Source: Pandoraea pulmonicola | GTDB taxonomy: Bacteria > Pseudomonadota > Gammaproteobacteria > Burkholderiales > Burkholderiaceae | Assembly: GCF_000815105.2 (NCBI RefSeq) | Contig: NZ_CP010310.2 | Span: 5,642,001-5,706,000, forward strand | Direction of reading: 5' to 3' | DNA: 64,000 nucleotides | The notes under the pieces: generated by a model | What the model was told of the DNA's origin: nothing | What the model saw: only the letters and a program-made list of their open reading frames with translations | Database searches by the model: none | Position numbers and translations under genes: made by a program | Shown: piece after piece, positions 46,697-60,910 of the stretch | Layout of the letters: each line of letters begins with the position of its first letter | How positions within the stretch are numbered: the first letter of the stretch is position 1

Positions 46697-46836
46697 AAAA
46701 TCCCCGCCGAGGCGGTAATGCCGTTCAGTTAAGCGTGTTTGTTGCGGGTCCGACCAGACGAAGGGCCACGGAACACCGTAAAAAAATGCCGCTTCGATTT
46801 GCGTCGAAGCGGCATTACCGCCAAGGCGGGGATTTT
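46697..46836. repeat. Long imperfect inverted repeat around a nested terminator
   Basis: The arms 46697-46723 and 46810-46836 are 27 bases long and match in inverse orientation at 25. A smaller hairpin is nested against the right arm (46786-46815). It lies between convergent genes and might fold into alternative stems in both transcripts. Confidence 0.7.
46780..46815 (-). terminator. Terminator of the di-heme cytochrome c gene
   Basis: A perfect twelve-base-pair stem ATGCCGCTTCGA/TCGAAGCGGCAT is followed on the minus strand by seven T. It lies 40-70 bases past the stop codon of the cytochrome gene. Confidence 0.85.
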
Positions 46837-48128: not shown

Positions 48129-48204
48129 GCGCCCGTAGCTCAGGGGATAGAGTATCGGCCTCCGAAGCCGAGGGTCACTGGTTCGATTCCAGTCGGGCGC
48201 GCCA
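48129..48204 (+). tRNA. tRNA-Arg (anticodon CCG)
   Basis: A 76-base cloverleaf with the CCA end encoded. The acceptor arm GCGCCCG pairs with CGGGCGC (48194-48200). The anticodon arm is TCGGC-CTCCGAA-GCCGA, giving anticodon CCG, and the T arm is CTGGTTCGATTCCAG. Its 3' half (48158-48204) recurs at 60847-60893, showing it as the integration site of the mobile element. Confidence 0.97.
48158..48204 (+). repeat. attL: 47-bp direct repeat in tRNA-Arg
   Basis: Identical over 47 bp to 60847-60893. The base before it differs (G here, A in the other copy), so the repeat length is exact. It covers the anticodon loop, T arm and CCA of the tRNA. Confidence 0.95.
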
Positions 48205-48476
48205 ATCTTTTCAATAGGTTATAACGATTCGCCAACGAATCACTGCTCACACCGTTTGCGGTTGTAATCCGCTTGTAACCCGTTTTGATCAACAGGAATC
48301 CAATCGTCGCCGATTCGTCGTCCCGTTTCACGCGTTTAAACACTAACAATGAGCACCCCCCGCATAAAGTCCTGAAATACCGCGCGCCTCGCGAGTTCAG
48401 GCGTGCTGTGTTGCCATCAACCTAACGGTGCCCGCGCGTCCTGAGTTACGGGGTCAACTCTACTCATAAGATCAAT
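48205..48476. other. Left end of the element, non-coding
   Basis: 272 bp between attL and the Crp/Fnr gene. Apart from the arm-site candidates nothing was recognised. Confidence 0.4.
48263..48281 (+). promoter_or_regulatory. Candidate integrase arm-type sites, left end
   Basis: TGTAATCC at 48263-48270 and TGTAACCC at 48274-48281 are direct copies 11 bp apart, 60-80 bp inside attL. The same motif with the same spacing lies inside the right end. Confidence 0.55.
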
Positions 48477-49196
48477 TCAGGAAGCCTGACGATCTGGAAG
48501 TAATCGGTCGAATTCGCGCTTCACGACTGCATAGCATTCACATACGCGTGCTTCCAGCCCCGATCGGTCCAGTACCTTAATGTGCCCATGGTTGTAGTTG
48601 ATCAGCCCCGCCTTTTGAAGTTTCAACGCAGCTTCCGTCACCCCGGACCTACGGACTCCAAGCATGTTTGCAATCAGTTCCTGAGTCATGCTCAACTCAG
48701 CGGAATGAAGGCGATCCAAGCTCAACAACAGCCAGCGACATAGTTGCTGGTCAATCGAGTGATGACGATTACACACGGCAGTTTGTGCCATTTGCGTAAT
48801 CAACGCCTGCGTATACCGAAGCAGAAGTCTCTGAAAAGCCCCCGCCCGATTGAACTCATCCTTGAGGACTCGTGCCCTCATTCGATAGGCATAGCCAGCG
48901 CTTTGCACGATGGCCCGACTCGGTGTCGTTTCGCCTCCCATGAATAACGCGATACCTATCAACCCCTCGTTCCCTACGATGGCAATCTCGGCAGAGGCGC
49001 CGTCTTCCATGACGTAGAGCAGAGAAACGATGGCAGTCGTGGGGAAATATACGTAATCCAGTTGGTCGCCGGACTCGTAGACCACTTTCCCCAGCGGCAT
49101 TTCCACAAGCACAAGTTCTGACGCCAAGCGGTCTCGGTCATCCGGTGGCAGTACCGCCAAGAGATGGTTGGCGTTTCTGACAGGGGGTACAGTCAT
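48477..49196 (-). CDS. Crp/Fnr family transcriptional regulator
   Basis: A 239-residue regulator. The N-terminal cyclic-nucleotide-like barrel shows VVYESGDQLDYVYFP and IAIVGNEGLIGIALFMGGE near residues 45-95. A C-terminal winged helix follows, with the recognition part MTQELIANMLGVRRSGVTEAA near residues 165-185. It lacks the Cys cluster of Fnr and the classical cAMP-pocket RxS, so the signal is unknown. AAGGA precedes the ATG at 49196; an ATG at 49223 would add nine residues. It is the first gene inside attL, carried as cargo. Confidence 0.85.
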   Translation of the reverse strand: MTVPPVRNANHLLAVLPPDDRDRLASELVLVEMPLGKVVYESGDQLDYVYFPTTAIVSLLYVMEDGASAEIAIVGNEGLIGIALFMGGETTPSRAIVQSAGYAYRMRARVLKDEFNRAGAFQRLLLRYTQALITQMAQTAVCNRHHSIDQQLCRWLLLSLDRLHSAELSMTQELIANMLGVRRSGVTEAALKLQKAGLINYNHGHIKVLDRSGLEARVCECYAVVKREFDRLLPDRQAS

Positions 49197-49620
49197 ACCG
49201 TATTCCTTGCGCTCAGGGCGCATATTCCCGCCGCGCGTGAGTTCTGCGAGTGACTGAAGCCATCGAGCAGACGCTATCATGCCCCCTGATGCGCCCTATA
49301 TGCGATCTTGGGCACCACATGGTCCCATCTTTGTCCGTTGGAACCGGGATGTCAACTAAGCGCCGCCGCCGCGATGGCTCGATATCGTCCGTACACGCGA
49401 GCGCCAGGCACTACCGAAGCCAAGTGCAACATAGAGATGGCCGATCGTGCCGCTCTTTTCCGGCACGCTACGTTGGTGAGACCCGCCAGGTTACACGAGA
49501 GAGCCAACTTCAGATGCTCACTTTGTTGACCGGTCTGTTCGGTATCGAACCGACTTCCGTAGACAACACTGAAACAATGCTTAAGTGCACATGCTGCGCG
49601 TGTGCCATAAGGAGTCGATC
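49197..49620. other. Intergenic region in cargo section
   Basis: A 424-bp gap between divergent genes. It is lower in GC than the host chromosome and must hold promoters for both sides. Open frames here lack ribosome sites and recognised domains. Confidence 0.4.
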
Positions 49621-49953
49621 ATGAGAAAGGAACGCATACTGCTTCACGTCTATGGCGAGCGCCGAGACGCAGCTTGGACACTTACCTGCCTGGATTTGTC
49701 ATTTTCCTCAAACGCTACAGACTTGATAAAGGCCAAGGAGTACGTCAGGGCTAACGCCTACGAATACCTGCAGGGAAAACTAATCGGGGAGAACATTCAG
49801 TTCCCTGCTGTCATCGTGAGTGCAAATTTCGTGTCCAAGCGCAAAATGAAATACTGGCTGGCACGCCTCTGGCAACACTTCGATGGACGCACTCGAGACC
49901 ACATCTACGATGAAGTCGTGGGCCTTGACGGCAAATATCCCGCGTTCTCCTGA
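49621..49953 (+). CDS. Hypothetical protein, 110 residues
   Basis: An ATG preceded by AAGGAG at seven bases begins a 110-residue soluble protein. It opens RKERILLHVYGERRDAAWTL and continues KAKEYVRANAYEYLQGK, a likely amphipathic helix. It ends with RTRDHIYDEVVGLDGKYPAFS. No domain recognised. It shares the plus strand with the tiny membrane protein gene 150 bp downstream. Confidence 0.6.
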   Translation: MRKERILLHVYGERRDAAWTLTCLDLSFSSNATDLIKAKEYVRANAYEYLQGKLIGENIQFPAVIVSANFVSKRKMKYWLARLWQHFDGRTRDHIYDEVVGLDGKYPAFS

Positions 49954-50100
49954 CCACGGCACAGCGCTATAGACATTGCCAGGTAAAAACCGCCAGGCGG
50001 CGTCGGCCCTGCCGGAAAGCCCCGGGGGCGACCAACGTCGCCCATCCGGAAACCGCCGCCAGTGCGAAGTTATTCAGCCGAGTGCTATGGGAGAATATCC

Positions 50101-50175
50101 ATGCGTAGTATGTCTTGGTTCTTCGCGGCGATTACCGTCGCCATTCTCTTATTGATCTACTGGGGAACAAGGTGA
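50101..50175 (+). CDS. Predicted 24-residue single-span membrane peptide
   Basis: An ATG seven bases after GGGAGA opens a frame for 24 residues. Sequence MSWFFAAITVAILLLIYWG is almost entirely hydrophobic between a basic start and a final Thr-Arg. Size and shape fit a small membrane regulator or a toxin-like peptide. No homolog recognised; expression is uncertain. Confidence 0.45.
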   Translation: MRSMSWFFAAITVAILLLIYWGTR

Positions 50176-50209
50176 GAAGCGTGCGACACATACCCGAGTG
50201 CGTCAGCCC

Positions 50210-50446
50210 TCATTCTGAGGGGCCAAGTATGAGATCAATGGCTGCGCGCCCCGCAATTTCAGCGATTAGATATGCCCATCGACGCGAGTATGGCCCTTGT
50301 TGCAGCAATACCCATTCACCGAAAGCAGCCACTCCAGATGGCCACATAGGGCCAATAATTCGAAAAGAGACTTCGTACATTCCTGGAGACACCGGGTCCA
50401 AACCCACGTGAATTTCAAAGCCTCGATAACCGATCGTGCGCTTCAT
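50210..50446 (-). CDS. Hypothetical protein with YRGFEIHV start, 78 residues
   Basis: GAGGAG lies seven bases before the ATG at 50446. The protein starts KRTIGYRGFEIHVGLDP, resembling small proteins found near cold-shock genes in related bacteria, where the start is often Y-x-G-F followed by alternating strands. The rest has SVRWAYLIAEIAGRAAIDLIL-type hydrophobic helix, here YLIAEIAGRAAIDLILGP. Role unknown. Confidence 0.55.
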   Translation of the reverse strand: MKRTIGYRGFEIHVGLDPVSPGMYEVSFRIIGPMWPSGVAAFGEWVLLQQGPYSRRWAYLIAEIAGRAAIDLILGPSE

Positions 50447-50687
50447 ATGTACTCCTCGTCGTGTATATGAATATCGACGAAATGGATCATGAAGCACATC
50501 ATTCAATAGTCGACATCCGGGATGCAATTACTGTTTTGATTTGTGCCGCCGAAGTGGATTTCATGCCATACTCGCGCTGCCCTCTTCAAGCTTGACAAAT
50601 AGGAGAGCATGCTGAACCAAGTGAATGATTAAACGTCGGCACAGACTAGAGAACATCCGCCCCGACGTCACTATTTGGCACTCGAGC
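50447..50687. other. Intergenic region in cargo section
   Basis: 241 bp, AT-rich for this genome, with no supported gene. It should include the promoter of the gene at 50446. Confidence 0.35.
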
Positions 50688-50762
50688 TTAAAGCGACTTT
50701 GAAAACAGAACGATCAACCCGAGAGAAAGAAGTAGTAATGTGCCGTAGGTTATGAAGCCCAT
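50688..50762 (-). CDS. Predicted second 24-residue membrane peptide
   Basis: On the minus strand an ATG at 50762 starts MGFITYGTLLLLSLGLIVLF, then Ser-Lys-Ser-Leu and stop. It is a single hydrophobic span. The ribosome site is weak, so it is less sure than the similar-sized frame at 50101. Confidence 0.35.
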   Translation of the reverse strand: MGFITYGTLLLLSLGLIVLFSKSL

Positions 50763-50797
50763 ACCAGATGGCAGCCTAGATTCCGTGCCGTCCGGTG

Positions 50798-51076
50798 TTA
50801 TTTCATGTCATCAGAACGACGCCGCTTGTGTTGCCCCGGTGAACTAGCCTTGTCATCGTCGCCAAGTGCTTGCTGCTCATCGTCTTCGTCGACATCAGGC
50901 GCAGGGCGTTCCCCTTCTGATGATCGTTTGGCCTCGTCTTCCTGACGTTCCGGGCGTCTCTCTTTATGGGGCCCCGTCGACCACATTTTTCGTGGTGGTT
51001 CCGGGTTCGTTAACGAGGGATCTACACTCTTTCCCCCGTTTTCCTGCTCGCTTCGATGCTTGCCTGTGTTATCCAT
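50798..51076 (-). CDS. Hypothetical charged, disordered protein, 92 residues
   Basis: GGAG lies six bases before the ATG at 51076 (an ATG 12 bases upstream is also possible). The protein is rich in Glu, Asp, Lys and Arg, for example RPERQEDEAKRSSEGE and DVDEDDEQQALGDDD. It has no hydrophobic core, so it is likely disordered. Function unknown. Confidence 0.5.
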   Translation of the reverse strand: MDNTGKHRSEQENGGKSVDPSLTNPEPPRKMWSTGPHKERRPERQEDEAKRSSEGERPAPDVDEDDEQQALGDDDKASSPGQHKRRRSDDMK

Positions 51077-51870
51077 ATCAGTCTCCATCTTTGGCGGGCC
51101 GGTTGGACCGCTTCAATACAGAGCCTGACAGTAAGTCTGCGTACCGTCGGTACGGCAGCGTGCAGAGAAAACCGTGCGACGGCGACAACCTTTCGCGCGC
51201 TTCACGAATATCGCAACACGGTCGGAGAACAATCATAGAAGGAGATGCTCACACATGCCTGTGAAAGCTGTGGAATATGGGATTTTCCGCCCAAAAAGAT
51301 ATCAATGAGCATCATTTTCATCCAAATGATCATTTAGATGATCTTCCGTGCCTTCACGCCCGAAGCAGGGCACAGCCCATCCGATACAGGATACTTGCCG
51401 TGCTTAGGTCTCATCATACCGAGGATGCCTTTGGGAAATGGACGCGCGCCGGCGACGCTAGTCCACTCTCGGACTCACCCAGAACTTTTTCCCGAAGGCA
51501 CACCTTCGCATGGGCCGGCACGCCGTGACCTGAGCTGTGGCACCGCCATTCCGTCCCGTCCTCATAGCGCATATCTTCCGGCAGCGGATATGTCGACGCC
51601 GCTAAACGTCATTGCGCCTACAGAGGCGACCAGTAGCGGACGGAGAACACAGGCGGCGTCAAATCTCACCGTTACACGAAATACATTGTGCCTGGGGCGT
51701 AACGCGCGTATAAGTAGTGCATCGAACATCAAGTCTGCCTTTCATCGACCAGCGTCGATCTTCACGATCTTTGCGAGACACTTCCGATCTCTGAATTTCT
51801 TGTTTGTCCGCCACTGGCGTCCAGTCACGCATTCCGCGATGGCAGCACGCCGGGGAAACCAGGAGTTCAC
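51077..51870. other. 794-bp gap upstream of the cold-shock gene
   Basis: No protein with a credible ribosome site or domain was found; a longer plus frame from 51338 has irregular composition and is out of step with the cold-shock start. A 12-bp palindrome AAATGATCATTT lies at 51324-51335 next to repeated ATGATC pieces. The part before 51871 may be a long cold-shock leader. Confidence 0.45.
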
Positions 51871-52083
51871 ATGAGCACCGGAATTGTTAAGTGGTTCAAC
51901 GACAGCAAGGGCTTCGGTTTCATCAAGCCGGACGACGGCAGCGAAGATTTGTTCGCTCACTTTTCGGAAATTCAGCCTCAAGGCCGCACCGAATTTCGCA
52001 CCCTCCAAGAAAACCAACGAGTTTCCTTTGACGTAGCCCGCGGGCCGAAAGGCTTGCAGGCTTCGAACATCAAGCCCGCATAA
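51871..52083 (+). CDS. Cold-shock protein (CspA family)
   Basis: A 70-residue single cold-shock domain. RNA-binding motif RNP1 is visible as KGFGFI in [14 protein letters not shown], and RNP2 as [15 protein letters not shown] precedes the ATG. These proteins bind single-stranded RNA and DNA and relax RNA structure, often at low temperature. It starts a run of small plus-strand cargo genes. Confidence 0.93.
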
Positions 52084-52160
52084 CCCTTCCCCGTTGCCGT
52101 TCTTGTACATCACCTCGCCCCTGCGCGGTGATGTTGCGCCACTCGCAACTGGAGGAAAAT

Positions 52161-52442
52161 ATGGCTTACATCAATCCGTTTTACCGAGGCTTTCGCTTGG
52201 AAACGTGCGTATTCCGTGAGCAGGACGCGGGGTCCACCGAGCGCAAGCATGACCGGACGTTCGGTGTCTCTGTAAGGATTTCCCGTATTTCCGAAAACGC
52301 CCCGGCATCATCGTTGGAACCGAGACTGTTTCGCCTCGATAGCTTGCCCTTCGACTCGATCGGCGACGCACGCCGTGCTGGCGAGGCATTCGGGCGGTCT
52401 TGGGTCGACGATCTCATGCGCAGCACGGAAGTGCAGGCATGA
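52161..52442 (+). CDS. Hypothetical protein downstream of the cold-shock gene, 93 residues
   Basis: GGAGGAAAAT leads into the ATG at 52161. The protein opens AYINPFYRGFRLETCVF, and the Y-x-G-F start resembles the protein at 50210. It has alternating basic and hydrophobic segments, for example HDRTFGVSVRISRI, suggesting a small beta fold. It overlaps the next gene by four bases (ATGA), so they are probably coupled. Function unknown. Confidence 0.6.
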   Translation: MAYINPFYRGFRLETCVFREQDAGSTERKHDRTFGVSVRISRISENAPASSLEPRLFRLDSLPFDSIGDARRAGEAFGRSWVDDLMRSTEVQA

Positions 52443-52636
52443 TCATGGTCATCCCGCCTAACTGGTTTCTGTATCCGGACTACGTACCGCCGGACAAAAC
52501 GCGATTCTGCGGCGGACTGTCTATCGCCAGCGCCCTCGAAGCGAGCCGCCGCATGGTGACAAAGCCCGTGCAGCACGGTCGAATTCGCAAATGGCTAAGT
52601 CGGCGTTACGTCGGCCAGTACCTGACCCGCAATTAA
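52439..52636 (+). CDS. Hypothetical protein, 65 residues, coupled to the previous gene
   Basis: The ATG overlaps the preceding stop in ATGA. The protein starts MIMVIPPNWFLYPDYVPPDK and is basic towards its end (RIRKWLSRRYVGQYL). No domain recognised. The overlap and tight spacing support it as a real gene. Confidence 0.5.
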   Translation: MIMVIPPNWFLYPDYVPPDKTRFCGGLSIASALEASRRMVTKPVQHGRIRKWLSRRYVGQYLTRN

Positions 52637-52696
52637 TCGATCGCATCAGTCGCACCGAAAGCCCTGCGGGCCACAGAACATCGACAGGAGCAGACC

Positions 52697-52894
52697 ATGC
52701 TCGCCCTTTCCGCACATGCCATAACGGCCGCGCTCCAGCGCATCGCTGATAAGAGTTCAAAACAGCCCTCAGAAGCGGTCATCAACGCACTGCTGGCTCG
52801 CGAATTGATACATCGAGTCGGCAAACACTTCGAACCGACCCAATTTGGTCGAGCTTATTGTCGGCACGCGAACACCCTTCGTCCGTCATGGTGA
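52697..52894 (+). CDS. Hypothetical protein, 65 residues
   Basis: CAGGAG precedes the ATG by seven bases. The sequence is helical in character: HAITAALQRIADKSSKQPSE followed by AVINALLARELIHRVGKHF. A small helical DNA-associated protein is possible; no family is recognised. It is the last plus-strand gene and converges on the small terminase. Confidence 0.5.
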   Translation: MLALSAHAITAALQRIADKSSKQPSEAVINALLARELIHRVGKHFEPTQFGRAYCRHANTLRPSW

Positions 52895-52949
52895 CGCTGC
52901 ATCGGACAGCGATTCACCGTCGTCAGCGGTCTCCTCAACGGCCACCGCG

Positions 52950-53366
52950 CTACTTCCGCTTCGGCTTCTGACCGTTGTTGGCGAACTTATTCCCGCCCTT
53001 GGCCTCGCCGAGCATCCCGATCTTCTGCTGTCCCATGGCGGTCAGGCCGAAATCGTTCTGATAGTTGCGCAGTAGGCTCAATAGGCTGGCGGTGGGCGTC
53101 ATACCGGCGGCGTATTCCTGCAGGATCCGCCCGTGCAAAGCGCACATGTGGCCCACTGCCGTCAGCGATGCTTCGGTAAGCAAGCCCACGTTCATAAGCA
53201 GCGGCACAACGCGATGCCACTCCTTCACGGCGAATGCGTTGGGCAGCCATTCCGGCGGCGCTGGATATTCTTGTATAAGCGGCAGATCCACACCAGGGCC
53301 GCTATCGTTGGCCCGTCTGCTGCCGGTGAGCAGCTTGAGGGCTCGTGGTTTTCCGGGATTTGGCAT
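52950..53366 (-). CDS. Phage terminase small subunit, P27 family
   Basis: Small terminase proteins recognise packaging sites on phage DNA. This 138-residue protein begins PNPGKPRALKLLTGSRRAND, the P27-type start. It has PPEWLPNAFAVKEWHRVVPLL near residue 38 and the helical block LLTEASLTAVGHMCALHGRI near residue 62. It has no neighbouring large terminase, portal or capsid gene, which is unusual. The gap to the tail gene upstream is 147 bp and contains a G-run next to GTAACAAA. Confidence 0.8.
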   Translation of the reverse strand: MPNPGKPRALKLLTGSRRANDSGPGVDLPLIQEYPAPPEWLPNAFAVKEWHRVVPLLMNVGLLTEASLTAVGHMCALHGRILQEYAAGMTPTASLLSLLRNYQNDFGLTAMGQQKIGMLGEAKGGNKFANNGQKPKRK

Positions 53367-53513
53367 AGGGTATTAGGTTTCTCTGGTTGAGATATTGAAC
53401 AGGTTAAGCGAGTGTCCAAAATCCGTTTTTCTGAAGCGGGCACGCGAAAATTTGGGTACGCGCCCGTGCCGGGAGGGAAAAGAACTGAAGATTTTGTTAC
53501 CCCCCCACCCTCA

Positions 53514-54125
53514 TCAGGCTTGGTCCTCCGCGTAAATGCCGGCCGAGATCACGGCGCCGCCAACGACCATGCGACCGTAAAGTACCGGCACGGGGTTGCC
53601 CTGCGCTTGCGTGTTCACCGGCCCGTTAAAGTTGTAGCTTGCGCCGTTGTCGGGACTGTCCTTCACCGAAAGCCCCTGCTGCGCCGGCGACAATAGCTGC
53701 GTGACGCCACCCAAGAACATTGCAGCGCCGAACATTGCGCCAGCCTGGGTAGCACCGCCAGCACTGAATGTCCCAATGAGCGTTGACGACGGCCCGAGAG
53801 CCCAAGCCGTAGCAATGATCGCCGCGCCTAGCATCACCTGGAACAGCCCGCCTCGCTTCGATCCAAGGACCACGGGAGCAATGCGAATGTCATCGGCTCC
53901 CGGTGGCAGATCGAGTTCACTCTCGCACAGGTGACGCTTGCCAACGAGGACCGCGTAGCCGAGCCCTCGAGCTCGGCTGCTCACCAGATCCTCATAGAAG
54001 CCCTTGCACTGGCTTGCGAGCGCTCGGAACGCCTCGCTAGGGGTGTTGATGGCGAAGCGGTGTACGCGCCCGTATTTCGCCCCCAGCGCGCCATACAGGC
54101 GCACCGTTCGAATCTTCTCCGTCAT
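53514..54125 (-). CDS. Lambda I-like tail assembly protein
   Basis: A 203-residue protein of the lambda tail protein I family. The N-terminal domain has VRLYGALGAKYGRVHRFAI and SEAFRALASQCKGF. A glycine-rich hydrophobic region near residues 95-150 follows (LFQVMLGAAIIATAWALG and AGAMFGAAMFLGGV), and it closes with NPVPVLYGRMVVGGAVISAG. In lambda this protein helps place the tail-tip complex with J. Here no J, K, L or capsid gene is present. GGAGG precedes the ATG at 54125. Why a satellite-size element keeps it is unclear. Confidence 0.85.
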   Translation of the reverse strand: MTEKIRTVRLYGALGAKYGRVHRFAINTPSEAFRALASQCKGFYEDLVSSRARGLGYAVLVGKRHLCESELDLPPGADDIRIAPVVLGSKRGGLFQVMLGAAIIATAWALGPSSTLIGTFSAGGATQAGAMFGAAMFLGGVTQLLSPAQQGLSVKDSPDNGASYNFNGPVNTQAQGNPVPVLYGRMVVGGAVISAGIYAEDQA

Positions 54126-54192
54126 GGTTACTTTCCTCCAAAGTTGTTCACCGAAAAACCTACCGTCTCCCCGACGGGTGTCGGCCAACCTT

Positions 54193-54435
54193 TCAACGTC
54201 GGGCTGTGTCCGCCTCGATCGTTCGCGCGATATGCACAATGCCTGCCGGATCAGTGAGCGTGATATGCGCGCTCACGGGCCCCGTGGTGGCGACGTGAAA
54301 GCCGAGGTGATGCCCGGCCCGCAACTTGTCTTCGAGCGCCGCCCGGTCGCCGTCTGGCAGCCCCTGCATCCACATGGCCAGGAACTCGGCCACGTCGATC
54401 TTTGTTTGGACGAACACGTCCGCCATTGCCCTCAT
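54193..54435 (-). CDS. Hypothetical protein, 80 residues
   Basis: GGAGG precedes the ATG at 54435. Helical start MADVFVQTKIDVAEFLAMW, then HLGFHVATTGPVSAHITLTD with alternating strands. It overlaps the gene upstream by four bases, so it is read in a coupled pair. Function unknown. Confidence 0.55.
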   Translation of the reverse strand: MRAMADVFVQTKIDVAEFLAMWMQGLPDGDRAALEDKLRAGHHLGFHVATTGPVSAHITLTDPAGIVHIARTIEADTARR

Positions 54436-54728
54436 TGAGATCCTCCGCCCGCCTCGCGGGCCTCGATCAGCGCCGCCCACTCGCGGTAATACATCAGGTC
54501 AATCCACACCGTGTAGTCCGGCTGACGAAGCGCCGCCGCTATGAATTGCTCGATCCTTTCCTCGTCGGTCTCCATCTCGCGAGCGCATCGGTCGATCAGC
54601 ACGATCAACTCTGCCCGCCACCCGCGGATCAATGAATCCGACGCCGGCGGCATGTAGGCCGTAAATGGGCCGTCTTCTACCGGATATCGGCCGCCAGCAT
54701 GTGGCGGCGCTCCACTCTGTTTTGCCAT
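54432..54728 (-). CDS. Hypothetical protein, 98 residues
   Basis: AGGAGC precedes the ATG at 54728. The protein has DSLIRGWRAELIVLIDRCA followed by acidic METDEERIEQFIAAALR, a likely helical pair, and closes with WIDLMYYREWAALIEARE. No family recognised. Its stop overlaps the start of the next gene (ATGA). Confidence 0.55.
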   Translation of the reverse strand: MAKQSGAPPHAGGRYPVEDGPFTAYMPPASDSLIRGWRAELIVLIDRCAREMETDEERIEQFIAAALRQPDYTVWIDLMYYREWAALIEAREAGGGSQ

Positions 54729-54986
54729 CGCTCCTATCCTCTGCCCACGTCTCGCCCGTGCCGGAACCGCCTCGTGCACGGAGTGCGCCGGCGCATTTGC
54801 TGCGGGGGTGCATTTTGTGCGGGGGGTGTCCAGTTTTCGGACGCCCAAGCAAGCCATGACCTATCGCCGCGCTGTAAAACGTTACTGAAACGGTGCGAGC
54901 CCGTTATGAGCTTTCCACCAACGGTGGAGTCCTTCAGATCGGGCGCAGGAGAGTCACGCGTGACACATCCGCCGTGTCCCAATCCC

Positions 54987-55082
54987 TCACCTCGCGAGTT
55001 CCGATTTACGGAACGGTTCCGGTTTTCGGAACAGGCCCGAATTCGGATCGGTACCGGTTCGCGCAAATTTGACCGCGACCAT
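54987..55082 (-). CDS. Possible 31-residue frame over two iterons
   Basis: A strong AAGGAGG site lies nine bases before an ATG at 55082. The frame encodes MVAVKFARTGTDPNSG, then LFRKPEPFRKSELAR; the repeated FRK comes from two iterons on the DNA. The ribosome site is the main reason to consider it. It may be chance overlap with the origin-like array. Confidence 0.35.
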   Translation of the reverse strand: MVAVKFARTGTDPNSGLFRKPEPFRKSELAR

Positions 55083-55359
55083 GTTTGCCCCCTCCTTTGC
55101 GGTGCTCCAACACACCTGAAAACCGCATTTCGCTGCGCGTAGGTATGGCAACATATAAAGGGAGTTCGATTTCCGAACAGGGAACGTCACTTTCAAAAAC
55201 ACCTAAAAATCACCCTGAAACGCCCGAAAACAAAGGTTTTTTCCATTTTTCGCCAGTGTTCGATTTCCGAACCCGAATTCACGCGCCCTGTTCGAAAACC
55301 GAACTGGAAAATCGCGCTTCGGGTTCGGATTCCGAACTGGACGGGTTCGATTTCCGAAC
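54998..55359. repeat. Iteron array: seven GTTCG-N5-CGAAC palindromes with an AT-rich section
   Basis: Copies lie at 54998-55014, 55016-55032, 55164-55178, 55258-55272, 55290-55304, 55323-55337 and 55345-55359. The two leftmost are extended to GTTCCG-N5-CGGAAC, and three of the others are exactly GTTCGATTTCCGAAC. The section 55179-55257 between them is AT-rich. Three copies lie inside the 3' end of the replication-like gene, as iterons do in lambda O. Confidence 0.75.
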
Positions 55360-55848
55360 AGGGGGATTTTTTTTGGGCTGCTGCTTTTTCCGCCCTTCCT
55401 CCTGCAATTGTTCGAGCCCCTTCACCAGCGCTTGCTCCGCCTCCTTCACCGAACCGAATTGCCGATAGTCGTGCGTCGCCTCTATGGCCTGCACACCAAC
55501 TCTGGGTTGCTCGAGCGTCGGCAAATCAGTAAAGCGATAGAGGTTCGGCACCCTGGCGCCGCGCCGCAATCCACCCTGCACCGTCACCGAGATAAAACCG
55601 AGCGCCCGGAGCTCATACAGGGCTTTGGCCAGCGTCGAGGATGATGACCAGCCCCGGTGCTTCATGTCGGCCAGCGAAGCCGCCAGATTGCCGTTATTCG
55701 TCGCTGTGAGCGCCGCCCGCATGTCGATGAACAACTTGACCGACGATGGGCCCAGAACCCGCCAGGCGGCGCTATTGAGCAGCGAGTGATAGATGCGCGC
55801 GTGCGGCCCGTTTGGGTCGCCCGGTACGCGTTGCCGCTTCATTCGCAT
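55279..55848 (-). CDS. Replication-like protein with winged-helix character; iterons in its 3' end
   Basis: A 189-residue protein. It opens RMKRQRVPGDPNGPHARIYH, then LLNSAAWRVLGPSSVKLFIDM and a helix-turn-helix-like part DMKHRGWSSSSTLAKALYELR split in the protein, followed by LRALGFISVTVQGGLRRG as a wing. This arrangement is that of phage replication initiators of the lambda O/RepO kind. The C-terminal 40 residues are low complexity, with charged runs that reflect the iterons on the DNA. It has no helicase motif, so host DnaB or another loader would be needed. An assignment as initiator is inference. Confidence 0.6.
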   Translation of the reverse strand: MRMKRQRVPGDPNGPHARIYHSLLNSAAWRVLGPSSVKLFIDMRAALTATNNGNLAASLADMKHRGWSSSSTLAKALYELRALGFISVTVQGGLRRGARVPNLYRFTDLPTLEQPRVGVQAIEATHDYRQFGSVKEAEQALVKGLEQLQEEGRKKQQPKKNPPVRKSNPSSSESEPEARFSSSVFEQGA

Positions 55849-55994
55849 GCCTCGGGTGGCACGTGCCCTGACCGCCCCATCCGTTCACGGGCGGCGCAAC
55901 GGAGACGCGATGGACGGTAGTAGGCCGCTCCGCCCTGCGCTGCAGCGATGAACCTCCGCAGCTCAGGGGCAGTGCGGACGGAGCCGCTACGCAT
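55839..55994 (-). CDS. Hypothetical protein, 51 residues, coupled
   Basis: A basic protein, RSGSVRTAPELRRFIAAAQ then YYRPSRLRCAARERMG. Its start overlaps the preceding gene and its stop overlaps the start of the replication-like gene. The overlaps are the main evidence. Function unknown. Confidence 0.45.
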   Translation of the reverse strand: MRSGSVRTAPELRRFIAAAQGGAAYYRPSRLRCAARERMGRSGHVPPEACE

Positions 55995-56220
55995 TGCTGA
56001 CGTCCTCCAGCCAGTCCGCCTCGCCGTCTGCGCGCTCGCCGTATGTGCTCGTGAGCTCTCTGCCGATGCACGAGAGTTGGACAATGTCGATAGCGCCGCC
56101 CGACTCGTGCTGCGCGATAGCCGCGAAAAGTGCGTGCGCCTGGCGAAGTGCGTCACCGGCCGTTCGTAGCTCATCTGCGGCACGGCTCGCAGCGTGAGCC
56201 AGTGTGGGTTTATGCGTCAT
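55987..56220 (-). CDS. Hypothetical helical protein, 77 residues, paralog of the next one upstream
   Basis: GGAGG precedes the ATG at 56220. The protein is helical: ASRAADELRTAGDALRQAHA, then HESGGAIDIVQLSCIGRELT. It resembles the protein at 56210-56440 in layout (ELRTAGDALRQAHALFAAI against ELCAAETAIRQARLMFSLM). Role unknown; it lies in the phage-like cassette. Confidence 0.6.
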   Translation of the reverse strand: MTHKPTLAHAASRAADELRTAGDALRQAHALFAAIAQHESGGAIDIVQLSCIGRELTSTYGERADGEADWLEDVSNA

Positions 56221-56440
56221 GGCAACGGTCCTCCGAGAAAAAGTCGCACGCGGCGCCGGCTTGTTCCGCCGCCAGATCCATCAAAGCCATCCCGGCCTGG
56301 GCGAGCAGGAACGTGTCTTTGCCGGCCAACACCAAGTCCTCTTCCATCAGGCTAAACATGAGACGTGCCTGACGAATAGCAGTCTCCGCGGCGCAAAGCT
56401 CTTTCGCTGCCCGGTCCTTCAATTCAACATAGCTCGCCAT
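56210..56440 (-). CDS. Hypothetical helical protein, 76 residues, paralog of the next one downstream
   Basis: GGAGG precedes the ATG at 56440. The block AKELCAAETAIRQARLMFSL matches the helix of the downstream neighbour, and AQAGMALMDLAAEQAGAACDF follows. The two genes overlap by 11 bases. Probably a tandem duplication with divergence. Confidence 0.6.
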   Translation of the reverse strand: MASYVELKDRAAKELCAAETAIRQARLMFSLMEEDLVLAGKDTFLLAQAGMALMDLAAEQAGAACDFFSEDRCHDA

Positions 56441-56441
56441 G

Positions 56442-56774
56442 TCACGCCTCCGTCGGTTCAGTCTGCGTTGTGTGGAGAGCCCTCACCCCCTCAATGTGAG
56501 GCCGTGCGCTGGGCAGAGCGCCGCGCACGGAACTATCGGGCAACTCATCTCCACGGAGCGGGACGAGCGCGTTGTCTTCAGCGATGACTCGGGACGTGAC
56601 GACATACTTGCGGCGGTCTTCACTGGGCAGGAACGCGGCCTGCCCAAGCAAGCAGACATTCCAGTCGCCGTCGGCACGCAGCGTTTTGACGAGCACCAGG
56701 CGACCGATGAGCAGCGGATTCCATGAACGCTTGATAAATGCCATATCGCCGGGGCGGCAGCGGAGCTTATCCAT
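56442..56774 (-). CDS. Hypothetical protein of a paralogous pair, 110 residues
   Basis: The start MDKLRCRPGDMAFIKRSWNP and the following LLIGRLVLVKTLRADGDWNV match the next gene's KKLRCQPGDLARVIRSTNPA-LIGRTVYVERRYDAERWAV. This looks like a small beta-barrel with a KOW-like or SH3-like shape, here inferred only from strand pattern. It extends about 25 residues past the shared part with an Arg-rich tail. It overlaps the upstream gene by eight bases. Confidence 0.6.
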   Translation of the reverse strand: MDKLRCRPGDMAFIKRSWNPLLIGRLVLVKTLRADGDWNVCLLGQAAFLPSEDRRKYVVTSRVIAEDNALVPLRGDELPDSSVRGALPSARPHIEGVRALHTTQTEPTEA

Positions 56775-57039
56775 AGCAAACCCCCGTTTGCGTTTCGCCG
56801 GCTTCCGACAACTCCCATCTCAGCGGAACGAGCGACATGTCACGGAACGCCGTTTTGTTGCCAATCACGGGACGACGATCACGGAACGTCAGGCCGAACG
56901 CGGGTGCGCCCAGAAGGGTGACTGCCCATCGCTCTGCGTCGTAGCGGCGTTCCACGTAGACTGTGCGACCAATCAATGCGGGATTCGTTGACCTGATGAC
57001 TCGGGCCAGATCGCCCGGTTGGCAGCGGAGCTTTTTCAT
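56767..57039 (-). CDS. Hypothetical protein of a paralogous pair, 90 residues
   Basis: Shares LRCQPGDLARVIRSTNPALI with the LRCRPGD-type gene downstream and ends with SLVPLRWEL, as in ALVPLRGDEL of the paralog. The start overlaps the preceding stop (ATGA). Likely a DNA- or protein-binding small beta domain; unnamed. Confidence 0.6.
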   Translation of the reverse strand: MKKLRCQPGDLARVIRSTNPALIGRTVYVERRYDAERWAVTLLGAPAFGLTFRDRRPVIGNKTAFRDMSLVPLRWELSEAGETQTGVCYG

Positions 57040-57245
57040 TGGGCCACCTCCACCGCCTTCTCCTGCATTGCAGGAAAAGCGTGCTCCCCCAATGGGGGAA
57101 CACCAGCCAGCGAGAGCATGGCGTCACCGAGGATATCGAGAGCATCCCGGTCGGAGTTGGACAAAGCAGCGGCGCGCAATGCTGCGCGGATGAGTTCGAT
57201 GGGGGATTTGATTTGCCCGGTATGGGCGAGCGACGACCGTTGCAT
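57036..57245 (-). CDS. Hypothetical helical protein, 69 residues
   Basis: AGGAGG lies seven bases before the ATG at 57245. The sequence is IKSPIELIRAALRAAALSNS then DALDILGDAMLSLAGVPPLG. An in-frame extension upstream to an ATG at 57533 gives a 165-residue product whose start overlaps the antirepressor stop (ATGA). The extension carries QCGFFTSVAFARLFYGRA, which faintly recalls phage Ash-type leader proteins. I keep the short version because of its strong ribosome site. Confidence 0.55.
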   Translation of the reverse strand: MQRSSLAHTGQIKSPIELIRAALRAAALSNSDRDALDILGDAMLSLAGVPPLGEHAFPAMQEKAVEVAQ

Positions 57246-57529
57246 GGCGCAACCTCCTGTGTTGAGTTGGAGGCCCGCCGCCCATTTCCAGATGGGGTGG
57301 GCGGGCACATGACAGGTCTGGAAATGTCGCAACACAGGAAGCGACGTGCGCGAACGCACCCCTACCAAGGCCCGCCCATAGAAGAGGCGCGCAAAGGCTA
57401 CGGACGTAAAAAAACCGCACTGTGGCGGCTGTCCGCCTGTGTTATTCCGGTTTCCAGGCCGGGTCACCGTTGTTTCGGTGACATAGAAAGTATACGCCGG
57501 GTCGTTTACGGCCATCAAGAGGAATTTCG

Positions 57530-58339
57530 TCATGCCAGCGCCGCCAGTTCGGTGGCGAGCGTGGTCAAGCCCTTGGGCGTCACTCTCACCTGCGTGGAAA
57601 CGACCTCGGACCCGTCGTGACGCGGCACCACCGTTACCCGGTGCTCCAGCAGCCCGCGCGCGATCACAGCCTGATAGGCGACCCACGATGCCCCTCGGCG
57701 GTAGATCCACTGATTGCAGGAGAGCCACCCGAACAACTTGCGCGGCGACACCTTCAGGTTCTTGGCAGCGTCCGTGATGCACAATGCGCCGTCAGCGCAC
57801 TCCAAGCGATCGAGCGCCTGCGCCTTGGGTTCGAGCGCCGCCACCTGATGCTGAAGCTGCAGCGATTGGCGGGCGTGGGTCTCCAAGAGTCCCAACAGCA
57901 CGCCGGGGTTCGTGAGATCCGGCGCTGCGGGCTGCGCAGCGATCGCGATGGAGCGATAGTGCAGGAAGGCATCAACGATGCGCCTCTGCCCCTCGCGGGA
58001 ACGCCGGCCACCGATGAAGGGGACCGAGACCAATGCGGCACGCTCGCTCAACCGATAAGCCCGCTGCGGACGGTTCGCCTCGTCTACGTAGGAGATCTCC
58101 TCAATGCTGAGGCGATCTATCGTGCCGTCTGCCAGCAATCCATCGAGCGTGCGCAGGACGTTGTCATGGCGACGGCCGAACTCCGTCGCGATGGACGGGC
58201 TATCCACGAAGAGCGCCCCGTCTGCACGACGAATGATGATTTCGTTCGACGCGCACACGGCGGCTGCGGTATCATCGGCGCTGGATTGGATGTAGTTGAT
58301 GTGGGCGCCCTGGCCGGCGCCCATTTTCTTTTGTGTCAT
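57530..58339 (-). CDS. Phage regulatory protein: Rha N-domain plus antirepressor C-domain
   Basis: A 269-residue protein. Residues 35-110 resemble the phage Rha domain: FVDSPSIATEFGRRHDNVLR then LSERAALVSVPFIGGRRS. The C-terminal 110 residues resemble the ANT/KilA-C antirepressor region: DAAKNLKVSPRKLFGWLSCN, then GLLEHRVTVV and VTPKGLTTLA at the end. Antirepressors of this kind turn phage programs on by binding repressors. The start shares its A with the stop of the HTH gene before it (TGATG). It is translationally coupled to the downstream frame through ATGA. Confidence 0.8.
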   Translation of the reverse strand: MTQKKMGAGQGAHINYIQSSADDTAAAVCASNEIIIRRADGALFVDSPSIATEFGRRHDNVLRTLDGLLADGTIDRLSIEEISYVDEANRPQRAYRLSERAALVSVPFIGGRRSREGQRRIVDAFLHYRSIAIAAQPAAPDLTNPGVLLGLLETHARQSLQLQHQVAALEPKAQALDRLECADGALCITDAAKNLKVSPRKLFGWLSCNQWIYRRGASWVAYQAVIARGLLEHRVTVVPRHDGSEVVSTQVRVTPKGLTTLATELAALA

Positions 58340-58551
58340 CACCGGCCCCCGTTCAGCAGTTGCTCAACGGCGTCCGTGGGCCACGCCAGGAACCGGTTCG
58401 GCAGTTTCACGGGGCGCACGCCGTGATAGCTGCCGGTCTCCATGTAGCGCTTTCGGATGCTTTGCGGGCGCAGGTGCAGCGCGCTGGCGAGCTGCACCGT
58501 CGTGAGGAACTGGCCGCCCACCGGAATATCCGCGGTCTGGTGAATCGTCAT
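58339..58551 (-). CDS. Small HTH protein, AlpA/excisionase-like
   Basis: GGGAG precedes the ATG at 58551 at a good distance. The 70-residue protein contains FLTTVQLASALHLRPQSIRK, a winged-helix/MerR-like DNA-binding unit, followed by RYMETGSYHGVRPVKLPNRF as the wing and LAWPTDAVEQLL at the end. AlpA- and Xis-type regulators have this layout and often help excision of islands. Position three genes from the integrase fits. Exact role is inference. Confidence 0.65.
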   Translation of the reverse strand: MTIHQTADIPVGGQFLTTVQLASALHLRPQSIRKRYMETGSYHGVRPVKLPNRFLAWPTDAVEQLLNGGR

Positions 58552-58652
58552 CGTCACTAACTCCCAAGTTTGCGGAATCAACATGATCCGCTTGGGCGCC
58601 AGTTTCGTGTTCGTGAGAGTTTTAGTAAAAACGGTTTGACGGAATAAGCGCG

Positions 58653-59243
58653 TTATTCCGAAAAGGGGTCGAACGCTTCGGGGTCATCCAGGATCTGTCG
58701 AGCCTTCGCGAGCATTTGGTCCCCGGTGAAATCAGTCACAACCGCGATGTCAACCGGCGCACCGCCCAGTTCCAAGTCACGCGCCCCCGCCCACACTTGC
58801 GCCCAAGCTGCCACGTCTCTCGCCTTGTGAAGCTGACGAACCGTGCTTTCAGCTACACCGTATCGTGCGGCAATGGCCTGAATTCCACGTGACCTGACCC
58901 CCTCGACAATCCGTCGAATGTCGATTTCCTCAAGCCTTCGCTCTTCCGCCAATAGCTCAGAATGAACCAGCACCCCTTCTGTTGCATGGTAAAGAGCATA
59001 GAGCACTTCAGCGACCTCACGCCGCTCGCGCGGGAGCAAGACGGAGTTGGTTTTCCCGCGCCGCTCAGGCATCCTGACGCTCCCCATAAGGTATCCGGCG
59101 AGCATATGACGGACATGGGGTGGCACCGTTTCATGCTTATTGAGCAGCGCGGCCAAATCATCTGCGAACCCCTCTCGCGTCAGGTCAATAAGGGCCCACG
59201 ACCATTCGGAATCGAGATCTCTCGACGTCATATCGTTATCCAT
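58653..59243 (-). CDS. Hypothetical helical protein with HTH-like segment, 196 residues
   Basis: A helical protein with AIAARYGVAESTVRQLHKAR near residue 130, which looks like a helix-turn-helix of resolvase or Trp-repressor type. Earlier parts include SWALIDLTREGFADDLAALL and RREVAEVLYALYHATEG. The start at 59243 (MDNDMTSRD) is assigned without a strong ribosome site; an ATG twelve bases later is possible. Perhaps a regulator in the integrase end of the element. A palindromic 21-bp sequence sits at its 3' end (58640-58660). Confidence 0.55.
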   Translation of the reverse strand: MDNDMTSRDLDSEWSWALIDLTREGFADDLAALLNKHETVPPHVRHMLAGYLMGSVRMPERRGKTNSVLLPRERREVAEVLYALYHATEGVLVHSELLAEERRLEEIDIRRIVEGVRSRGIQAIAARYGVAESTVRQLHKARDVAAWAQVWAGARDLELGGAPVDIAVVTDFTGDQMLAKARQILDDPEAFDPFSE

Positions 59244-59347
59244 TGGTTTTTCTACGGACTCCGGAATAGAAGATGCTGAGATTCCGCGGGGCTTGATAGA
59301 CGCGCTAACGTCACGGTGGGGCGGCGCTCTTGCATGACAGGCGAGGA

Positions 59348-60661
59348 TCACTTGACGGCTTGTAGCAGCGGCTTGTCGGCTGTAGCATCAAACTCAATGC
59401 CGGCCTGTTCCAACATCCACGCCTCCACCTTGTCATGCCACATGCGAAGTAAGTCGAGCGGGCGCCGGCGATAGTGTTTCTCCGCCAGTGCGCTGGGCTT
59501 GTGCCCTTGGATCTGGGCAACCACGCCAACAGGCACCTCACACCACTCCGAAAGCGTCCCGAAGGAACGGCGCAGACCGTGCAGTGAGACGTGGGGCAGG
59601 CCGGCCACCGCCAGAGCCTTCGTATGGGCAATTCGCGGCTCTGTGAGCTTTCCATCGGCAGCCAAAGGACTGGAGAACACCCATTCGTTCCGGCGCGGCA
59701 GCGCCGCCAGCAGGCTCGACAGATACGGGGTGAGCGGCACCGTTCGGCCTGTTTCCTCGACCTTATCGGACAGTTGCAGACTCCGCCATTGAAAATCAAC
59801 GTCTGCCCAGCGAAGCGCCGCCAGTTCCTCTCGGCGCGCCCCTGTGATGAGTAACCCCTGGAGATAGGCGGAGATGACCCGATTGGATATGGCTCTGACG
59901 GCATTGAACCACTGCGCCAACTGCTCGCGCTGCAAGCAATCGTGCTCCTTCGCGCGTTGCTTGGGGACGGCGCTCATTACGGAGTCGTCGCGGCAGCAAT
60001 CAGGATTCGCGATGCCCCCGTACCGCGGCGACTTGGCGCACCAGTTGATGAAGGTGCGGAATTTGCGAAAGGCATTCACTGCCACAGTCTCACGGACGAC
60101 GCGCTCCTTTCGAACCCATTCCCGTACCACTACGGCGTCGATCGAGGCCAGTGGCAGCGCCAGCAAAGGCGCCAGTGGCCCCGCCGTGGTAAGCCCCTTC
60201 CCTCGCTTCTTCACCTCCCCGCCGGGCGCGGCCGCGCGCTCATGATCGAGCCGATGGCGATCGCTCCATTGCTCGTGCGGCTCAGCCATGTATGTGTTCC
60301 AGGCATCGCGGGCAAGCAGCGTACCGCGCTCCTCGAGCTGGCGGCGCTGCTCGAGATCCCGCTTTCTCGCCTCTAGCGTCTCTGCCTTCTCCACTCGCGG
60401 ATCGACGCCCGCCGTCACCAGCCGCTGCAATCGCCGCGCCTCGTCCTGGGCCTGCTCGATGGTGACGCTTCGATGATCCCCCAAGGTGAGTCTGAGGGTG
60501 CGGCCATGGAACTTTCCCTGAAAGACATAGGTCTTCGCGCCGCCGGCCGTAGCCCGCAGGCCCAAGCCCGGCGCCCGAGAGTCCCACAGAAATGATTGCG
60601 CCTTGTCGGCGGGGCACTCATGCCGCTCCACGCGCGCCGCCGTAAAGTTGATCTTAGCCAC
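59348..60661 (-). CDS. int: Tyrosine-recombinase integrase of P4 type
   Basis: The 437-residue integrase performs integration into, and excision from, tRNA-Arg. The N-terminal DUF4102-type arm-binding region covers residues 1-95 (LWDSRAPGLGLRATAGGAKT). The catalytic residues are Arg276 in TGARREEL, His361 and Arg364 in HGLRRSFG, His387 in GHKPSA and Tyr397 in EKHYRRR. All are present, so the enzyme may be active. It reads away from attR and lies 186 bp inside it. Confidence 0.93.
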   Translation of the reverse strand: MAKINFTAARVERHECPADKAQSFLWDSRAPGLGLRATAGGAKTYVFQGKFHGRTLRLTLGDHRSVTIEQAQDEARRLQRLVTAGVDPRVEKAETLEARKRDLEQRRQLEERGTLLARDAWNTYMAEPHEQWSDRHRLDHERAAAPGGEVKKRGKGLTTAGPLAPLLALPLASIDAVVVREWVRKERVVRETVAVNAFRKFRTFINWCAKSPRYGGIANPDCCRDDSVMSAVPKQRAKEHDCLQREQLAQWFNAVRAISNRVISAYLQGLLITGARREELAALRWADVDFQWRSLQLSDKVEETGRTVPLTPYLSSLLAALPRRNEWVFSSPLAADGKLTEPRIAHTKALAVAGLPHVSLHGLRRSFGTLSEWCEVPVGVVAQIQGHKPSALAEKHYRRRPLDLLRMWHDKVEAWMLEQAGIEFDATADKPLLQAVK

Positions 60662-60682
60662 GATCCGCCTCGCCCAAAAACC

Positions 60683-60716
60683 GGGTTACAGAGCCCGTGT
60701 AACCCATATGTAACCC
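60683..60716. promoter_or_regulatory. Candidate integrase arm-type sites, right end
   Basis: TGTAACCC at 60698-60705 and 60709-60716, direct and 11 bp apart, plus an inverted GGGTTACA at 60683-60690. The left end of the element has the same motif with the same spacing (48263 and 48274). Confidence 0.6.
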
Positions 60717-60846
60717 GATTCTGAGCGAATCGATCAATTCACGTCAACTTCCAGCGACCATCGAAATCACAATAAAATCTTGTATTTCATATGCTTACAC
60801 GATTTTCATGGAAATCGATCAACACCGATAAACACCTACTTGTTCA

Positions 60847-60893
60847 GCCTCCGAAGCCGAGGGTCACTGGTTCGATTCCAGTCGGGCGCGCCA
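60847..60893 (+). repeat. attR: 47-bp direct repeat
   Basis: Identical to the 3' half of tRNA-Arg(CCG) at 48158-48204. It lacks the 5' half of a tRNA and is not a functional tRNA copy. Confidence 0.95.
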
Positions 60894-60910
60894 CATCGCA
60901 GTTCCAGGCC

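Follow-up and report, generated by a model that had tools for sequence, protein, structure and literature searches.

A 12.7-kb unit was delimited within the window, by which we mean the whole 64-kb stretch of a Pandoraea-type chromosome that was analyzed. It is bounded by tRNA-Arg(CCG) on the left and by an exact 47-nt repeat on the right. The following features were observed:

48129..48204, plus strand: tRNA-Arg(CCG), the integration target (ARAGORN, Rfam tRNA); its 3' end (48155-48204) is attL
48263..48282, plus strand: arm-site-like pair TGTAATCCG/TGTAACCCG, 59 and 70 nt inside the left end, putative role
48477..49280, minus strand: Crp/Fnr-type regulator (PF00027, PF13545)
49585..49953, plus strand: h122, 81-84% in loci L087 and L088
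51871..52894, plus strand: cold-shock protein (PF00313) with h104 and h65
52950..53366, minus strand: P27-type TerS, 138 aa (PF05119 just above the cut-off; PHROG 83, E 5e-12)
53514..54125, minus strand: TAP-I, lambda gpI-type tail-tip protein, 203 aa, full length (PHROG 32, E 5e-65)
54193..54480, minus strand: h95, no family match
54432..54857, minus strand: h141, no family match
55164..55359, no strand: origin-like array of five iterons GTTC-N7-GAAC, spacings 22, 33, 32 and 94
55279..55848, minus strand: Rep (O-like), 189 aa, 56-67% to Rep of small contigs
56442..56774, minus strand: h110, 48-50% in L091 and L093
56767..57039, minus strand: h90, paralogue of h110 (46%), with relatives in L091 and L093
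57293..57383, minus strand: C4 antisense RNA (51.3 bits, cut-off 45)
57408..57482, minus strand: isrK-like RNA (49.8 bits, just below the cut-off of 50)
57530..58342, minus strand: Rha-KilAC antirepressor, 270 aa (PF09669 and PF03374)
58339..58584, minus strand: small gene, tentatively AlpA/Xis-like
58653..59351, minus strand: h232, conserved and adjoining the integrase, no family match
59348..60661, minus strand: tyrosine integrase, 437 aa (PF13356, PF00589)
60698..60717, plus strand: arm-site-like pair TGTAACCCA/TGTAACCCG near attR, 145 and 134 nt from the end, putative role
60844..60893, plus strand: attR, a copy of the tRNA 3' end (direct repeat, 47 nt exact)

When the two ends were aligned, the perfect 47-bp repeats noted in the first-pass annotation were recovered as the exact part (48158-48204 and 60847-60893) of a 50-nt direct repeat with one mismatch (48155-48204 and 60844-60893). 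That annotation was also right about the complete integrase, the antirepressor, to which our search assigned Rha and KilAC domains, and the P27-type TerS. Its list missed the complete TAP-I gene, the C4 RNA and the arm-like repeats at both ends. The offsets and distances of these repeats are identical in a 3.7-kb element of genome G002, which is inserted at the same tRNA-Arg and carries an integrase 86% identical to the one studied here. The integrase has a pN/pS of 0.12, and no relatives of it were found in the scan of viral contigs.

Gene h232 showed 32% identity to the gene after an integrase-like gene of L211, a capsid-carrying element of Herbaspirillum autotrophicum, and to the gene at the start of L096; in the alignment the L096 protein alone was convincing. 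For the neighbouring small gene the first-pass annotation had proposed an AlpA/Xis-like HTH function. The gene is in place, but it has no Pfam, PHROG or NCBIfam match, and the label comes from its position and a weak tblastn match in L210. Relatives of Rha were found at 39-45% in L089, L090 and L095 and at 77% in Pandoraea sputorum, and none in the scan of viral contigs. Among the 15 scanned loci with a Rep of at least 56% identity, 12 gave a C4 RNA match, the misses being L092, L095 and L210; within this count L096 and L211 appear to be one element, and so do L209 and L215. In L204 an isrK RNA scored over the cut-off and adjoins C4. An int-alpA RNA was not found at 58200-61000.

Rep gave a weak match to the phage O-like family PHROG 391 (E 0.0017) and none among 50,697 phage or 72,556 plasmid records at E 1e-5. 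Eleven IMG/VR loci, whose contigs measure 8.4-19.4 kb, hold its relatives at 56-67%. Matches to capsid, portal, TerS and TerL were present in all 11 (PHROG names were assigned for representatives). The motif GTTC-N7-GAAC occurs five times in the rep region, against 0.02 expected from mononucleotide shuffles, and once elsewhere in the window. All 11 loci likewise have five iterons (spacings 22, 33-34, 32 and 95-104), and in four loci these keep the strict motif. When the loci were inspected by group, L089-L095 and L204 showed five iterons with relaxed letters at 22, 33-34, 32 and 95-106, and L096-L098, L209, L211 and L215 showed five at 22, 33, 32 and 102-104. The array reported earlier stands, with five conserved iterons, and "replication-like" for the rep gene reflects the weak PHROG 391 match together with the array.

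Rep and h232 were found in only one of 32 genomes of the genus, the window's own, and a second capsidless copy with the element's genes was not seen on DNA. No further copy was found among three genomes in the genus of G065. Weaker genome matches may be phage genes. The element as a whole had no match to phage records by megablast, and distant blastn of 52914-60843 returned TAP-I pieces only, in four records. PADLOC gave no match for eight unassigned element proteins and two from G002.

TAP-I aligns over residues 8-202 to residues 17-212 of lambda gpI (8iyk; E 8.6e-24). Its relatives in the protein database share 86-97%, those named being from P. morbifera (90%) and P. commovens (86%). It is 53-72% similar to five other copies in the genus, with a long open frame at each locus, and 51% to the L096 copy. 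The gene is carried by two of the 11 Rep-relative IMG/VR contigs and is uncommon in the capsid lineage, where 3 of 80 loci have it; among satellite-like loci that are otherwise poor in tail genes, a minority carry it. In L096, L098, L211 and L308 it lies between the capsid and protease genes, and the order rep, TAP-I, TerS is common to the element and to L096, L098 and L211. Satellite rows were scattered in the TAP-I tree; from the first tree we take no more than this scatter and the clade of the element, and the quick tree includes the prophage rows G001, G004, G005 and G020b.

The NCBIfam P27 TerS model also matches TerS, below its cut-off. Relatives were found at 91%, 81% (Pandoraea sputorum) and 80%, and the TerS of L096 is 33% similar. 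Single-sequence scans found no relative in the genome contigs and only relatives of 46% and 35% in the viral contigs. When the best 80 of 229 relatives from the alignment scan were considered, 76 of the 77 with enough downstream sequence showed TerL or a long frame there, so TerS alone is no satellite marker. Since TerS and TAP-I are closer to copies in the genus than to those of L096, both may be parts of local phages, which would be expected if fit to a local helper is needed. A single P. morbifera contig, given as 168,634 bases in the match lists of both proteins and present once in each, contains TAP-I at 90% and TerS at 88%. The entry for the P. morbifera TerS has 86 aa and begins at an internal start, so the gene may be broken there. 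No TerL of PHROG 9, the sole TerL family scanned, was found in the window's genome, nor was another TAP-I or TerS copy at the cut-offs used; thus no resident helper of that type is visible.

The left part of the element carries the cargo. An 87% copy of the cold-shock block was found at the same tRNA in G017, alone and without attR; we read it as a remnant, although independent arrival would also account for it. The block occurs elsewhere on contigs of G001 and G002 as well, and the h122 copies of L087 and L088 are two of three copies near a cold-shock block. The Crp/Fnr-type regulator has DNA matches of 70-78% in other genomes of the genus. We also considered the cargo as plain chromosome. 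The arm-like repeats on the tRNA side speak against this, as they are located beyond the cargo and at the offsets of the G002 element.

In summary, the gene order is int, AlpA-like (a weak label), Rha, C4, rep, TAP-I and TerS, and capsid genes are absent. A profile search with filters off found no remnant of TerL, portal, capsid, protease or HNH in the element, which bears out the earlier statement that large terminase, portal and capsid genes are lacking. In the MCP profile of this search, the L091 row spanned just its C-terminal third. We conclude that the element is probably an integrated satellite from a capsid-forming lineage that has lost capsid, portal and TerL, and we predict that it spreads by means of its own TerS and TAP-I, which would divert an external helper phage. 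As Rep has no match in the 50,697 phage records and has its relatives on small contigs with a capsid module, the element appears to be a capsidless satellite derivative and not a decayed prophage. The first-pass annotation had suggested a new satellite type; the relatives support a satellite, but as a variant without capsid genes of kinds that are already known (capsid-forming PICI-like elements and phiAH14b). That annotation had also held that a full structural module between TerS and tail genes in close relatives would indicate a simple deletion. Relatives do have a module around TAP-I and TerS, on contigs of 8-19 kb and not in full phages.

In the proposed cycle, the C4 RNA would repress lytic genes, and a helper or the Rha antirepressor would lift this block. 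The integrase would excise the unit and Rep would fire the iteron origin. TerS would join the helper TerL, so that satellite DNA is packaged into helper heads, and TAP-I would take the place of gpI in helper tail tips or tilt tail assembly in favour of satellite particles. The cargo of stress genes would be carried along. Points against this reading are the single genome with the capsidless form, the lack of a visible resident helper, the small share of capsid-lineage loci with TAP-I, the weak PHROG 391 match of Rep, and, for phiAH14b, particles that had no tails and none of its proteins.

A possible but clearly less probable explanation is that a capsid-forming satellite has lost its capsid module and its mobility, with TAP-I and TerS as leftovers. 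Loss by decay does happen: in L204, a relative that occupies the same kind of tRNA, the capsid region is eroded and just the TAP-I C-terminus and HNH are left. The single genome with the capsidless form, the lack of a resident PHROG 9 TerL and the possibly truncated P. morbifera TerS agree with this. However, integrase, Rha, Rep, TAP-I and TerS are all open frames, none of the five iterons is missing and nothing of the capsid module was found. TerS and TAP-I look like types of local phages and not like versions inherited with the satellite, and TAP-I is full length with close relatives in the protein database.

TAP-I could also be a decoy that poisons helper tail assembly and confers immunity, which is compatible with the satellite reading at a different step; we consider this use unlikely. 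Tail blockers encoded by satellites or prophages are described (Tai, PMC11364771; Tab, PMC10884400; Rta, PMC12987554), but excerpts of these papers do not describe them as TAP-I homologues. In favour of a decoy, the TAP-I-bearing phiAH14b was, according to part of its report, found with tail-less helper particles; these contained none of the phiAH14b proteins (PMC4936722). Against a decoy, the element's TAP-I is full length and aligns to nearly all of lambda gpI, and TAP-I lies between capsid and protease genes in the four loci named above.

An ordinary prophage decayed by a large internal deletion, earlier given as the main alternative, is highly improbable and was ruled out as the main reading: TerS and TAP-I are phage-type genes, and a 38,544-base contig and the P. 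norimbergensis chromosome, which may hold ordinary prophages, each have both relatives (TerS 61-66%, TAP-I 62-63%), but Rep has no match in the phage records and close relatives in small satellite-like elements, no TerL, portal or capsid remnant was found, and TAP-I precedes TerS, an order that is shared with satellite-like loci carrying capsid genes and is the opposite of a single-deletion product (in G001 the TerS relative is about 14 kb upstream of TAP-I).

Returning to the capsidless satellite, its Rep/origin module is found with and without own capsid genes and thus links capsid-forming and capsidless satellites; the shift of a satellite between making and stealing heads is thereby open to testing. 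We offer only tentatively the idea that a helper-like gpI/TAP-I was acquired repeatedly, as the sole tail-tip gene, by satellites with several types of replicon. The element pairs TAP-I with a phage-type TerS, and its particles might combine helper heads with a chimeric tail tip, so that satellite and not helper particles would get a working DNA-release plug. The plug would then be a gene acquired by satellites on more than one occasion, and, if it becomes part of the particle, the release of DNA from stolen tails would be under satellite control.

Several known systems were compared with the element. Lambda gpI, the homologue of its TAP-I (PMC11101478, PMC10721106; PDB 8iyk), is described in part of these sources within a full tail-tip gene set, whereas no gpJ-sized frame or tail family match other than TAP-I was seen in the element. 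The features of cf-PICIs were taken from portions of PMC10690885 and PMC11389934, with the definition as quoted in the former. Small size, an integrase at a tRNA with att sites and a Rep region are common to cf-PICIs (PMC10690885) and the element, and the cf-PICI-like loci L089-L098, L209, L211 and L215 share its Rep family and iteron spacing, most of them also the C4 RNA. cf-PICIs have their own MCP, protease, portal, HNH and TerL; the element lacks all five and has TerS only.

Of the features of capsidless PICIs, which have int, a regulator and rep-ori but no structural genes, the element shows int, rep-ori and the absence of head genes; the AlpA-like label of its small gene is weak, and one tail-tip gene is present. 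SaPIs/PICIs with their own TerS also lack capsid genes; there TerS redirects packaging, as it may do here (PMC10690885). Proteobacterial PICIs use Rpp, which binds the phage TerS, unlike the element with a TerS of its own (PMC10690885). The relevant passages of that source do not mention a TAP-I gene for SaPI/PICI, and the element has one. Vibrio cholerae PLEs resemble the element in encoding a tail part, and chimeric tails with PLE tape measure and baseplate-hub proteins have just been reported in a text that also lists cf-PICIs with putative tape-measure genes (PMC12987554, in part). Genes, host and helper differ between PLE and the element, whose part is a gpI-type tail-tip protein of putative use.

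Satellites with TAP-I are already in print, namely phiAH14b (a Pseudomonas satellite, KU708005), although we found no paper joining "tail assembly protein" with "phage satellite". phiAH14b and the element have in common int, AlpA (weakly labelled here), Rha, C4 about 160 nt after Rha, replication genes and a full-length TAP-I, and both are without capsid, portal and TerL. phiAH14b replicates by primase/helicase, whereas the element has an O-like Rep with iterons, and no TerS was found in phiAH14b, whereas the element has one. The sizes are 16.8 kb and 12.7 kb, and the two TAP-I proteins share 45%. According to the portion of the phiAH14b report consulted, its TAP-I is 71-74% like the helper's own, and the authors conclude that phiAH14b DNA is packed in particles of the helper AH14a (PMC4936722).

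Rep is the key to the relatives of the 12.7-kb element (48158..60893), a candidate capsidless phage satellite. When IMG/VR was scanned with Rep, 10 loci were found with the single sequence and 11 with the alignment, on contigs of 8.4-19.4 kb, and the contigs of GTDB genomes yielded 6 loci, including Massilia frigida, Cupriavidus pauculus and Herbaspirillum autotrophicum. No Rep match was found among 50,697 phage records or among 72,556 plasmid records at an E-value of 1e-5. At the same cut-off Rep matched in 22 of 398 family genomes (below 1e-25 in five besides the window's own), and its alignment matched in 14 of 399 order genomes at 1e-12. Among these, the weaker matches may come from replication genes of ordinary phages.

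All 11 IMG/VR Rep loci contain capsid, portal, small terminase (TerS) and large terminase (TerL) matches; some of the reference proteins were drawn from these same loci, and PHROG names were checked on representatives. A scan with capsid proteins gave 114 relatives, and among the best 80 of them 13 match a Rep profile at 1e-4, four of which were already known. Tail genes in the Rep-relative loci were judged by open frames and a few profiles. Locus L211 is a complete 11.8-kb unit at a tRNA-Val, bounded by 53-nt repeats (98 %), with the order integrase-like gene (labelled by eye and from a weak match), h232, small HTH-like gene, C4, rep, iterons, capsid protein, TAP-I, protease, portal, HNH, TerS and TerL. 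Judged by its proteins, L096 is the same element and has this layout minus the first end; L098 is similar and has no h232. Two relatives, L209 and L204, are inserted, like the element, at a tRNA-Arg(CCG). The latter, in genome G065, is a 10.2-kb unit with exact att repeats of 49 nt, and HNH and the end of TAP-I are what remains of its eroded capsid region. It also carries iterons, C4 and isrK and, beyond the eroded region, three other opposite-strand genes.

In the element, five GTTC-N7-GAAC iterons straddle the 3' end of rep with spacings of 22, 33, 32 and 94. The spacings are 22, 33, 32 and 104 in L096, L097, L209, L211 and L215, and nearly so in L098. When the letters were relaxed (GTAC-type half-sites), five iterons were found in L089-L095 and L204 (spacings 22, 33-34, 32 and 95-106) and one in L210. 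The half-sites vary while the geometry is kept, which would fit an origin that evolves together with its Rep.

In P1-type phages C4 serves as an immunity RNA. Directly 3' of the element's antirepressor gene is a C4 antisense RNA, adjoined by an isrK-like RNA that scores 49.8 bits, where the cut-off is 50. Of the 15 loci scanned that have a Rep at least 56 % identical, 12 carry C4, as does L308, a locus from the capsid scan.

The insertion target lies on a chromosome of 5,867,621 bases:
48129-48204, tRNA-Arg(CCG), insertion target of the element

The far end of the 12.7-kb unit is a copy of the 3' end of this tRNA (47 nt, exact). TGTAAYCC repeats occur in pairs near both inner ends, 59 and 70 nt from the left end and 145 and 134 nt from the right end, and the same offsets are seen in a 3.7-kb element at the same tRNA in genome G002, whose integrase is 86 % identical. 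These pairs look like integrase arm sites, and their presence at both inner ends suggests that the whole 12.7 kb, cargo included, is one integration unit. Besides its integrase, the G002 element (L024, 10651-14411) has two unknown genes, together with an int-alpA RNA. Inside the left end of our element, a 130-nt stretch (48331-48463) has 85-90 % copies in many genus genomes, nine of them listed in G031, and may be a small repeat element. Outside it, at 46697-46836, there is a 27-nt inverted arm pair, 93 % complementary and 86 nt apart.

The genus is taken to be Pandoraea, to which the named close relatives of the window's proteins belong. The right flank of the site is present in 26 of 32 genus genomes, the window's own counted, and the site stretch was compared in the other 25 (in G013 the tRNA falls outside the stretch taken). 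The site is empty or nearly so in nine, holds the small integrase element in G002 and the cold-shock block alone, with attR absent, in G017. A further 13 of the 25 carry different inserts there, about 1.3 to 15.4 kb long. With so many unrelated inserts, tRNA-Arg(CCG) is an insertion hotspot; they are enzyme- or autotransporter-like, judged by eye from short translations. At an E-value of 1e-3, the element's proteins had no match in the 25 stretches except the integrase (G002) and the cold-shock block (G017). Genome-wide, h232 and Rep occur in one of the 32 genus genomes (the window's own), TerS in two (own and G001, the latter 33 %) and TAP-I in five.

The cold-shock, h104, h65, h122 and h105 genes also occur together elsewhere, on contigs of G001 and G002, within a span of about 5 kb. 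GC rises from 0.53-0.55 in the cargo (48-52 kb) to 0.58-0.63 at 52-61 kb; outside, it is 0.64-0.67. The pN/pS values were 0.12 for the integrase (against G002), 0.37 for Rep (against L089) and 0.29-0.51 for TAP-I against other copies, where synonymous sites are near saturation.

TAP-I is full length, and its residues 8-202 match lambda gpI. According to PMC11101478 and PMC10721106, gpI sits in the tail tip as a trimeric plug; by an older view, which PMC4936722 cites, it is absent from the mature tail. Among 61 TAP-I loci (57 from the scan and four added), TAP-I has a neighbouring frame of 500 aa or more in 52, and three reach the contig end. That leaves six: L096, L098, L211, L260, L278 and L267, the last with a gpJ-sized frame a little further away. 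Portal and Neck1 were matched in L260, capsid and protease in L278, and in L308 TAP-I lies between capsid and protease, with different genes in the replication place. These three loci are satellite-like, show TAP-I as their only tail-tip gene seen and have different replication genes. TAP-I is a minority gene (3 of the best 80 of the 114 capsid-scan loci). In the TAP-I tree, the element's copy groups in one clade with the proteins of P. morbifera and P. commovens and two others, and the satellite rows are scattered, requiring four changes, so repeated uptake of TAP-I by satellites is likely. The closest named relatives of the element's TerS are in P. morbifera (88 % over 86 aa) and P. sputorum (81 %); its identity to the TerS of L096 is 33 %. 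TerS and TAP-I may both have been acquired from local phages.

No helper was seen: PHROG 9, the only TerL family searched, had no match in the window's own genome and matched in 4 of 14 control genomes. This is not decisive, because PMC11389934 reports a capsid-forming PICI (cf-PICI) that foreign phages mobilised and that none of 17 resident prophages moved at a detectable frequency.

The closing comparison is with phiAH14b (KU708005, our L374), a Pseudomonas satellite that, according to PMC4936722, is likewise capsidless and carries TAP-I; the authors conclude that its DNA was packed in helper-made particles. TerS, Rep and capsid were looked for in phiAH14b and gave no match. A C4 match was found at 3957-4043, about 160 nt after the Rha gene; it is absent from the feature table of the record. 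The element in the window thus looks like a hybrid, in which a cf-PICI-like replicon is combined with a gene set like that of phiAH14b, TerS being an addition.
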